Shown here one piece after another: positions 24,883-26,469 of a DNA stretch of 33,959 nucleotides (positions are counted from its first letter, which is position 1; each line of letters starts with the position of its first letter). Position numbers and translations under genes: made by a program. The notes beneath the pieces are model-generated. The model was not told the DNA's origin. It searched no databases and saw only the letters and a list, made by a program, of their open reading frames with translations. The stretch is from Patescibacteria group bacterium (GTDB lineage Bacteria; Patescibacteriota; Minisyncoccia; Phycocordibacterales; UBA1006): the NCBI GenBank assembly GCA_020428645.1, contig JAGQMN010000008.1, positions 1 through 33,959 on the forward strand, written 5' to 3'.

Positions 24883-24935
24883 ATGGCGACTATGCAGAAT
24901 AATAGTTAAGCACGGTTATTACGGTAATAACCAGC
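24883..24935 (+). repeat. Partial, diverged copy of the tRNA-His 5' half
   Basis: GGCGACTATG and, further on, ACGGTTATTAC echo GGTGACTATG and ACGGTTATTAC of the intact tRNA-His at 24985, but with an insertion between them, a perfect inverted repeat GGTTATTAC-G-GTAATAACC, and no tRNA fold. It may be a relic of duplication or recombination at this tRNA. Confidence 0.35.
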
Positions 24936-24984
24936 CGTAGCTAATCAATTTCAATTCTCGCTCAGTGTTCCATAATAATATTAT

Positions 24985-25057
24985 GGTGACTATGGTATAA
25001 CGGTTATTACTCCGGGTTGTGGTTCCGGCAATGTGGGTTCGATTCCCGCTAGTCACC
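24985..25057 (+). tRNA. tRNA-His (anticodon GTG)
   Basis: Acceptor GTGACTA (24986-24992) pairs with TAGTCAC (25050-25056), with the histidine-specific extra G-1 (24985) opposite C73. Anticodon arm CCGGG-TTGTGGT-TCCGG gives anticodon GTG. T-arm GTGGG-TTCGATT-CCCGC. The 3' CCA is not encoded. Confidence 0.96.
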
Positions 25058-25058
25058 C
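25040..25058 (+). repeat. Direct repeat, copy 1 (3' end of tRNA-His), att-like
   Basis: CGATTCCCGCTAGTCACCC, comprising the 3' part of the T-arm and the acceptor strand. An identical copy lies at 25248-25266. Such duplications are left when an integrase uses a tRNA 3' end as its attachment site. Confidence 0.7.
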
Positions 25059-25064
25059 AGCATA

Positions 25065-25096
25065 GAAAAGAGCTAGGTTCACCCCTAGCTCTTTTC
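25065..25096 (+). terminator. Terminator of tRNA-His
   Basis: GAAAAGAGCTAGG pairs perfectly (13 bp) with CCTAGCTCTTTTC over a 6-nt loop. Confidence 0.88.
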
Positions 25097-25247
25097 TCGT
25101 GCATGATGTGACTACGAGAACACGAGTGTGTTCGAGAGGGAATCGAAAAGAGTGAGTATATCGAGCGTAGCGAGATTCGAACGGCGGGGTCGAGCGAATG
25201 AGATTATCGTGAGTCCGTAGGACGAAACGAGAATCCATGAGGGTGAC

Positions 25248-25266
25248 CGATTCCCGCTAGTCACCC
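25248..25266 (+). repeat. Direct repeat, copy 2 (tRNA-His 3' end duplicate), att-like
   Basis: Identical 19-mer to the end of tRNA-His. It is preceded directly by GGGTGAC, which equals the tRNA 5' acceptor sequence, so the remnant looks like a tRNA-His copy with its middle deleted. The 190 bp between the copies hold a terminator, a small GAACAC/GTGTTC hairpin (25118-25133) and GTCC-GTA-GGAC (25213-25223), but no convincing gene. Confidence 0.7.
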
Positions 25267-25302
25267 CATTTAGTGCTAGCACGAGAAGGTTCGTTTTGGC
25301 AT

Positions 25303-25334
25303 AACAAAAAGCACTCACTTAAGTGCTTTTTGTT
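25303..25334 (+). terminator. Perfect terminator upstream of the HEPN gene
   Basis: AACAAAAAGCACT pairs perfectly (13 bp) with AGTGCTTTTTGTT. No gene ends here now; it may have served the deleted tRNA copy or a lost gene. Confidence 0.8.
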
Positions 25335-25353
25335 ATTCATAATTTTTAGCTGA

Positions 25354-25359
25354 TATAAT
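25354..25359 (+). promoter_or_regulatory. -10 element of the HEPN gene, leaderless arrangement
   Basis: Consensus TATAAT followed by exactly 6 nt (TAAATC) and ATG 25366. Confidence 0.7.
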
Positions 25360-25365
25360 TAAATC

Positions 25366-26298
25366 ATGAATATTGATAATGTGTTTGATAGTAATATTTT
25401 TATTTGTGATGAGAATGACCAAGGACAAGGAATGACAAGTGTTTGTATCATTAATGGGATAGAAGTAGATTCTGATTTTACTGTCGGACCCCTCACTCTT
25501 AGACCCTTAGATAAAGCCGTCGATCATTTCCCTCGTGATATAAGAAAAGATCTTCAGCACGCAGTTTTAGAGTTTAGATATATTGATAGAAAAAATTCTA
25601 TTTCTAGATATGCTGAACCGTCTATTATCCAATCTGCAGCAATAAAAACTTTCAAGTTAATGGTTGATAGTTGGGCTGGAGCAACTTTGATTTATCATTT
25701 TGATGATACAGGAGCACAAAATGGAGGAACTTCAGGATCACGAAGATGGGAAACAGCCGACACAGAATATGTTCGGGAAGGAGCAAAACTGGAGGTAAGT
25801 GAAGAAAACAAAGAATTATTTAAAAATATTTTTTATTCAAGTTTTGGAAAATTAGAACATGCAATTGATAGGTATGATCGAGCATGTGCAGAAATAAAAG
25901 ATGAAAGTATTCTAGATTTTATCATCTCATTAGAAGCAACTCTTGGGTATGGTCTTAATACTGAAATTTCACATCGTTTTTCTTTAAGAGGAGCAATTCT
26001 CTTGTCAGAAAATGAATCGGAGCGAAGTTCTTATTATGATTTGTTTAAAACATTATATAAACTTAGATCTGTGATTGCACATGGTGAACCTCTTCTAGAA
26101 AAAGAACTAACTAAGGGTGTATATGTTTCTGCAATTCAAAACTTAGGTTTTTCTTACGAAGAGCATGAGAGTTTTAAAATAAGAATTGCTGCAGATATTG
26201 CGAGACAGGTTACTCGTAGAGTTTTACTTAAATTTATCTTAAATGAAGAGCTTTTAGATAAAAACAAATTACTTAATTTAGAGTTAGGGATTAATTAA
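25366..26298 (+). CDS. HEPN-domain protein (ApeA-like C-terminal domain), possible RNase/defence protein
   Basis: 310 aa. The C-terminal half is a helical HEPN domain of the ApeA-like type: FIISLEATLGYG ... ISHRFSLRGAILL ... YDLFKTLYKLRSVIAHGE, with the RX4H catalytic motif formed by Arg234 and His239. HEPN RX4-6H proteins are commonly metal-independent RNases in toxin-antitoxin, abortive infection and other defence systems. The N-terminal ~150 residues are beta-rich and not recognised, and may be a sensor or binding module. The gene is more AT-rich with more AGA and TTA codons than its neighbours. It sits between a duplicated tRNA-His end and a decayed recombinase, which suggests arrival on a mobile element. 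Its 3' end overlaps the recombinase remnant on the other strand. Confidence 0.75.
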   Translation: MNIDNVFDSNIFICDENDQGQGMTSVCIINGIEVDSDFTVGPLTLRPLDKAVDHFPRDIRKDLQHAVLEFRYIDRKNSISRYAEPSIIQSAAIKTFKLMVDSWAGATLIYHFDDTGAQNGGTSGSRRWETADTEYVREGAKLEVSEENKELFKNIFYSSFGKLEHAIDRYDRACAEIKDESILDFIISLEATLGYGLNTEISHRFSLRGAILLSENESERSSYYDLFKTLYKLRSVIAHGEPLLEKELTKGVYVSAIQNLGFSYEEHESFKIRIAADIARQVTRRVLLKFILNEELLDKNKLLNLELGIN

Positions 26299-26469
26299 GT
26301 GAATCTTTTTCTTTTGTAAGATTAACTGACCCTTAAGACAATTCATAATTTCTCGTTTTTCTTCAAGCGACCCTTCTTTAAGAATAAATGTAGCGTAAGC
26401 GAGAGTATTAATATCTTTTAAAAATACTTGAGCCTTCTCACCAAGAATCGTTTCGTGGAATTTTTTAAT
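26284..26469 (-). pseudogene. C-terminal remnant of a site-specific (probably serine) recombinase
   Basis: An open frame of 61 codons begins right after an in-frame TAG at 26470-26472 and has no start codon. It reads FHETILGEKAQVFLKDINT and continues through LAYATFILKEGSLEEKREI, then NCLKGQLILQKKKIHLINP, and stops with TAA at 26284-26286. The block GSLEEKREI followed by L-x-x-x-L-x-L-x-x-K-K resembles the extreme C-terminus of large serine recombinases. Everything upstream (catalytic and DNA-binding domains) is gone. Family assignment rests on this one block and is moderate. Its stop lies inside the 3' end of the HEPN gene. Confidence 0.5.

Follow-up and report, generated by a model that had tools for sequence, protein, structure and literature searches.

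The DNA analysed here (the window, 33,959 nt) is contig C38 of a 720-kb assembly that is 88% complete; the genome size and gene content point to Patescibacteria (CPR). It carries an intact tRNA-His gene, a second copy of the 3′ end of that gene, two terminator-like hairpins, an accessory open reading frame (ORF) and, on the opposite strand, a fragment of a serine recombinase gene (table 1). The 19 nt closing the tRNA gene (25040-25058, C56-C74) are found again, identical, at 25248-25266, that is, 208 bp downstream, as the preliminary description of this locus had reported; chance is very far from accounting for an exact 19-nt repeat over so short a distance, some hundreds of bases. In what follows, X denotes the 3′ end within the gene, R the distal copy, and L a stretch between them that is the reverse complement of the 3′ end. 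The copy resembling the 5′ half of the tRNA, located upstream at about 24884-24930, is likewise real, and is present also at tRNA-His of the genomes G009, G008 and G011. The motif GGTGACC ahead of the repeat had been taken for the 5′ acceptor sequence of the tRNA; it is part of a conserved core, and it precedes the repeat at tRNAs of many isotypes.

Table 1. Features at the tRNA-His locus, in positions of the window.
Feature	Position	Strand	Basis
Leader: copy of the tRNA 5′ end and complementary stretch (5′-type mirror)	24884..24930	+	
tRNA-His(gtg), intact	24986..25058	+	ARAGORN; empty-site comparison
Original 5′ part of tRNA-His, to U55	24986-25039	+	Empty-site comparison
X: C56-C74, arrived with the insert, without encoded CCA	25040-25058	+	Empty-site comparison
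Inserted unit of 208 bp, X-hairpin-L-core	25040..25247	+	Omission restores the G010 arrangement
Terminator-like hairpin and T-run, directly 3′ of X	25064..25098	+	Inverted repeat
Acceptor part of L, reverse complement of the tRNA acceptor 3′ strand (GTGACTA)	25108..25114	+	Direct reading
Small hairpin within L, at the acceptor/T-stem boundary	25115..25134	+	Direct reading; similar ones in other spacers of ~80 nt
T-stem/T-loop part of L (AGGGAATCG), 5′ strand of helix P1	25137..25145	+	Covariance model
Junction GAAAAGAG and P2 region, P2 badly formed in the window copy	25146..25187	+	Covariance model
P3 hairpin GGTC...GACC, abutting the displaced tRNA 3′ end	25188..25248	+	Covariance model
R: displaced original tRNA-His 3′ end, encoded CCA kept	25248..25268	+	Runs on as ...CCCCATTTAGTGCTAGC, exactly as in G010
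Original tRNA-His terminator (earlier called an orphan terminator)	25301..25336	+	G010 alignment; inverted repeat
Accessory ORF, 310 aa, outside the insert	25366..26298	+	In 2/197 genomes; without family match
Large serine recombinase, C-terminal relic, outside the insert	26293..26463	-	Homology to intact relatives

A VKOR-like gene upstream of tRNA-His is kept across the genus, and the locus can therefore be traced between genomes. In the relative G010, tRNA-His encodes CCA, has no repeat, and is followed by CCCCATTTAGTGCTAGCACGAGAAGG and then by a terminator, AACAAAAAGCACTCA...AGTGCTTTTTGTTAT; the identical series follows R in the window. Local alignment of the two loci scores 309 when 25040-25247 is omitted from the window and 226.5 when the window is left intact, and in the comparison with all other tRNA flanks the pair of His flanks scores 73, shuffled queries reaching 28 at most. 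The match and the gain in score indicate that 208 bp, the exact ends of which are ambiguous by the length of the 19-nt repeat, were inserted between U55 and C56 of tRNA-His. It also follows from the alignment that the new 3′ end (X) came without CCA, that the old end (R) retains it, and that the hairpin at 25301-25336, although real, is no orphan but the original terminator of the gene. The preliminary description had proposed comparison with a relative lacking the insertion, and tRNA-His of G010 is such an empty site. The proposed integration scar, with a restored gene and a displaced 3′ end, is thereby confirmed, except for its extent, the insert being confined to the 208 bp that separate one copy from the other. 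No ORF in these 208 bp matches any family. In G009 and G006, tRNA-His has neither a unit nor an encoded CCA, and the trailer in G009 is the same as the new trailer in the window; judging from this common trailer, G009 has probably lost its unit.

The HEPN-like ORF and the recombinase relic, which had both been read as parts of the integrated element, are located beyond the original terminator of tRNA-His. The label HEPN rests on one motif, RSVIAHG; searches of the ORF (25366-26298) against Pfam, NCBIfam and PADLOC gave no match, and its single-sequence AlphaFold2 model, at pLDDT 34, is unusable. The recombinase assignment was right: the stretch 26293-26463 is 86-91% identical to the C-termini of two intact G010 ORFs (430-431 aa), which match PF00239, PF07508 and PF13408, and it represents the C-terminus alone of full-length proteins with Resolvase and Recombinase domains. 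G010 has no unit, yet an intact 431-aa serine recombinase is encoded on the same side of its tRNA-His, with an unrelated small gene between recombinase and tRNA and phage terminase-like genes farther along. The supposed tie between recombinase and repeat does not hold, as the same arrangement is found at about 95 tRNA genes in units that contain no recombinase. The most plausible reading of the ORF and the relic is a decayed serine-recombinase prophage, distinct from the insert, beside the original terminator. A second C-terminal relic of a serine recombinase lies on contig C11 of the window genome (46272-46433), about 1 kb past the unit of tRNA-Gln, and prophages of this kind may have a preference for the vicinity of tRNAs. 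The intact prophage-like region by tRNA-His of G010 (L170) also has a reverse transcriptase match (G010:C4:52832-53440).

In the window genome, exact copies of the 3′ end are found downstream of the tRNAs for Gln, Phe, Met, Ile and Val, a copy with one change behind tRNA-Asp, and partial copies behind the tRNAs for Tyr and Ser; the exact copies and the Asp copy stand about as far downstream as the one at tRNA-His. Because such copies stand behind many tRNAs, the tRNA-His repeat is one case of a recurrent arrangement. A covariance model, built from 11 units and extended to 73, matches the window at 25137-25256 with 81.5 bits and a weak P2. It has 15 matches in the window genome: 14 stand downstream of a tRNA, on the same strand as that tRNA, and for 13 of these the distance is at most 250 nt. 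With matches up to 350 nt away counted, at least 12 of the 36 tRNAs carry a unit. Model R1 matches 42 of 148 relatives, and model R2 matches 39 in a phylum-wide set of 381 genomes; 18 loci were inspected among the phylum-wide matches, and most of them, other classes included, show the tRNA-unit arrangement, R containing CCA whenever CCA is encoded by the tRNA. The model gave zero matches in 61 unrelated loci (484 kb). Exact-pattern matches to part of the core in GC-rich unrelated genomes are apparently due to chance and served only as a negative control, and two candidates from a pattern scan of viral sequences were not confirmed by the model. With Rfam 15, at gathering and at relaxed thresholds, only tRNAs and chance matches were obtained, and no intron or structured RNA family. 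A literature search limited to open-access papers yielded no description of these units.

Altogether 95 units were mapped in 43 genomes by a detector that needed a copy R and an arm L, and the frequencies given here are biased accordingly towards well-formed units, decayed ones being undercounted. The units nearly always start 50-90 nt downstream of a tRNA on the same strand, and their order is the new tRNA 3′ end (X), a hairpin, L, the core with its three-way junction, and R. Mostly L starts 47-60 nt past the end of the tRNA; in a second group the distance is about 75-85 nt, and there L contains an additional small hairpin at the boundary of acceptor and T-stem. A small hairpin of this kind with a CTGC-like loop recurs in L at L091, L026, L305, L118, L319 and L125 and in the Asp and Met units of the window genome. 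The spacer contains a terminator-like hairpin in 70 of the 95 units; in other classes some units have a hairpin without a T-run, and one unit lies within a run of tRNA genes. The repeats may run past the tRNA into the trailer, to about 76-89 nt, and sometimes through the hairpin into L. Loss of CCA was considered as a general mark of the units, but it is significant in family f1 alone (0/41 against 9/54) and absent overall.

The two copies of the 3′ end are not conserved evenly. At positions 56-63, R agrees with X in 96-100% of the 95 units, and farther out in 73-85%. The distribution is bimodal, all nine distal positions being identical in 58 of the 95 units, and in many units R is lost past the T-stem. 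Read as its reverse complement, L is the same as X in 93-100% of units at positions 56-61, a share that falls to about half at 65-68. At sites of disagreement between X and R within positions 57-64, the zone of helix P1, L agrees with X 24 times and with R 5 times.

The core is a real conserved three-way junction of about 100 nt that, on the evidence of the alignment, is formed by the tRNA-sense strand. In the 73-unit alignment 93.4% of the cells pair, and two-sided changes occur at 21 of the 25 pairs; helix 4, the P3 hairpin, pairs in 98.6% of the cells. The covariation score is 0.475, against 0.152 for shuffled alignments and at most 0.072 for slid partners, with an effect size that is inflated because this alignment was fitted to the structure; an earlier free alignment had already given compensatory pairs at 13 of 25. 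Wobble pairs of the GT/TG type number 70 and AC/CA 24, an asymmetry pointing to folding of the tRNA-sense strand, which fits either RNA or single-stranded DNA. The folding energy of the window copy, taken as a single sequence, is unremarkable among shuffles (z -1.46).

The insertion history is well supported, and tRNA-His is not its only witness. At tRNA-Glu, G007 carries two units. When the proximal unit is dropped, what is left corresponds to tRNA-Glu of the window genome with its single unit (score 259, against 131 with both units kept), which means that a newer unit entered the same T-loop site ahead of the older; the two genes have different anticodons (CTC and TTC), and their orthology was judged from the flanks. 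On this single pair, units can stack, with the newest closest to the tRNA. Tandem or nested units are present at tRNA-Tyr of the window genome, at tRNA-Asn of G107 and at other tRNAs. At L313 (G335), amid a run of tRNA genes, R is followed by a further copy of the unit over at least 76 nt, perhaps a perfect tandem. The acceptor part of L at tRNA-His (GTGACTA) is identical in G013; the His units of the window genome and of G013 seem to be persistent across genera, and many units may be old.

Cores are shared within genomes rather than within isoacceptors. Out of 94 cores, 36 have their closest relative at another tRNA of the same genome, where 2.7 would be expected, and only 3 have it at the same isoacceptor, where the expectation is also 2.7. 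The Gln and Ser units of the window genome have cores that are 97% identical and arms that are different, and the Val and Ser units of G055 have most of the core in common and a different hairpin and arms. Near-identical cores with differing arms imply that cores pass between tRNA genes and that the arms fit the new place. In G014 the cores are mosaic (L137, L138, L333): P2 is common to the Gly, Arg and Lys units, and P3 is combined otherwise. The pattern suggests some exchange between resident units, and gene conversion between resident units could also be the source of core likeness within a genome.

Taken together, our results favour, with a probability of about three in four, the reading that the window holds one copy of a small cassette without ORFs that inserts into tRNA genes at U55|C56 of the T-loop. 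X is a fresh copy of the 3′ end of the host tRNA, which keeps the tRNA whole, and the old end lies displaced behind the core as R. The core would be the mobile part, recognised in its folded form by a trans-acting factor, and X and L would be rebuilt from the target at insertion, most likely when DNA synthesis folds back on the hairpin that follows the tRNA. X, hairpin and L do form a single long quasi-palindrome centred on that hairpin, as fold-back synthesis would leave. Several aspects weigh against the cassette. No recombinase or integrase was found inside the units read, nor any enzyme for insertion, nor a circular or excised form, and the preference of L for the intact tRNA over R is unexpected for a pure relic. 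The possible gene conversion between resident units, the seeming persistence of some units across genera, the bias of the counts towards well-formed units and the fold of the window copy, just 1.46 sd ahead of its shuffles, also count against it. A more far-reaching version can be put forward tentatively, at clearly less than even odds: the unit may be a self-retargeting element. Its core of about 100 nt, guided by base pairing of L with T-loop and T-stem, would be copied into tRNA genes whatever their isotype, each insertion rebuilding L and X and the host tRNA never being lost.

The agreement of L with the intact tRNA would also fit a functional RNA, in which tRNA, hairpin, L, core and R would make up one transcript, L would pair with the tRNA 3′ end or with R, the core would be a switch controlling tRNA folding or maturation, and concerted evolution would keep the copies of a genome alike. 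Strong covariation and the strand asymmetry of the wobble pairs agree with this, as do the nearly fixed position behind tRNAs and those units of another class that lie within a tRNA operon without a T-run terminator. However, a terminator-like hairpin precedes most units (70/95), many have lost R past the T-stem, the tRNA in question is without a unit in sister genomes, and two pairs of empty and occupied sites together with the tandem stacks show repeated insertion; we consider a functional RNA less likely than the cassette, though the strongest of its rivals. The long quasi-palindrome, the varying length of the repeats and the mosaic cores would also be produced with no mobile element at all, if replication slippage and template switching at the terminator palindrome duplicated and inverted tRNA 3′ ends and homologous recombination swapped the cores. 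Slippage cannot alone supply a new tRNA with the conserved core of about 100 nt, which recurs with the same junction at many tRNAs and in several classes of the phylum; we consider this reading improbable.

Self-primed copying of a terminated tRNA transcript would likewise yield X, hairpin and L, and the core could then have been inserted by reverse transcription primed on that transcript. The repeats, however, go beyond the mature tRNA ends, and an RVT_1 match is absent in G006 and G015, each with at least 6 model matches, so that a reverse transcriptase is not required in carrier genomes; the odds of a retro-element are very low. Reverse transcription of the mature tRNA was itself ruled out, as the repeats continue past the tRNA end. 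The least credible of the readings, with hardly any weight left, is that of the preliminary description, a conventional integrative element of which the HEPN cargo and the recombinase end were retained. A tRNA duplication and a recombinase relic do lie within 1.4 kb of sequence, and a similar relic follows the tRNA-Gln unit at about 1 kb, but the insert stops at 25247 and is followed by R, the original terminator and only then the accessory gene, and G010 has an intact serine recombinase here without any unit.

The cassette has partial counterparts among known systems. Closest in principle are the Islander genomic islands: their integration breaks a tRNA gene that the incoming DNA makes whole again, and the fragment pushed aside remains as a marker of the distal boundary (PMC4383910). 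The units resemble these islands in regenerating the tRNA and leaving a displaced fragment at the other end, but they are about 200 bp long and without integrase; in contrast to the narrow attachment site of an island, their cores group by genome and not by isoacceptor, and most isotypes are served, with arms matching each. MITEs and other short non-autonomous transposons are also short, non-coding and repeated, with inverted arms and direct repeats, whereas in the units the arms follow the target instead of being fixed own ends, and the direct repeats range from about 6 to about 90 nt. Casposons, which are kilobase elements encoding Cas1 and a polymerase, duplicate the tRNA 3′ end as the units do, but the units encode nothing like either protein. 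Group I and other tRNA introns share with the units a position within a tRNA gene and a guide-like stretch complementary to the flanking tRNA; unlike them, the units have no Rfam intron match and supply their own tRNA 3′ end, and splicing is therefore not needed.

In integrons, the attC site is a folded single strand with the core boxes GTTRRRY/RYYYAAC. Integron cassettes are, like most of the units, short and added singly at one end of an array, an order of addition seen here in one pair (tRNA-Glu). The junction of the units, however, is GTGAC|C56 with tRNA-derived arms and without GTTRRRY/RYYYAAC boxes; their target is the tRNA T-loop, their site is a three-way junction, and most have no gene. 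Arrays of integron-like gene cassettes were rejected as a general picture, since almost all units lack a gene and are directly preceded by a tRNA of their own. A unit at tRNA-Ser(tga) of the window genome (L002 1773-2219, contig C6) lies about 665 nt from the tRNA, spans a DUF695 gene and is possibly a gene-carrying unit. An insert recurring at dozens of different tRNA genes with locally copied arms corresponds to no known mobile element as described.

Site-specific elements normally bear a fixed copy of a single target. Here one family of cores is found at most isotypes with arms always fitting the local tRNA, which implies that the target-specific sequence either originates during insertion, by being made or picked up there, or is kept matched to the tRNA later. 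Either route would be a new rule for DNA elements living in essential genes, in a phylum with very small genomes. It would account for the many partial tRNA copies and repeats near tRNAs in such genomes, and would provide a natural model for precise and harmless insertion into tRNA genes.

The arrangement also has a mirror form upstream of tRNAs. Among 153 tRNAs, about 18 are preceded at 75-200 nt by a copy of their own 5′ end, often with the complement of the 5′ half behind it; examples besides the leader in the window (24884-24930) are L003 (1129-1319), L006 (upstream of 1501), L044, L048, L139, L146 and L152. At tRNA-His this 5′ mirror appears to be placed between promoter and tRNA and to track the sequence of each species.
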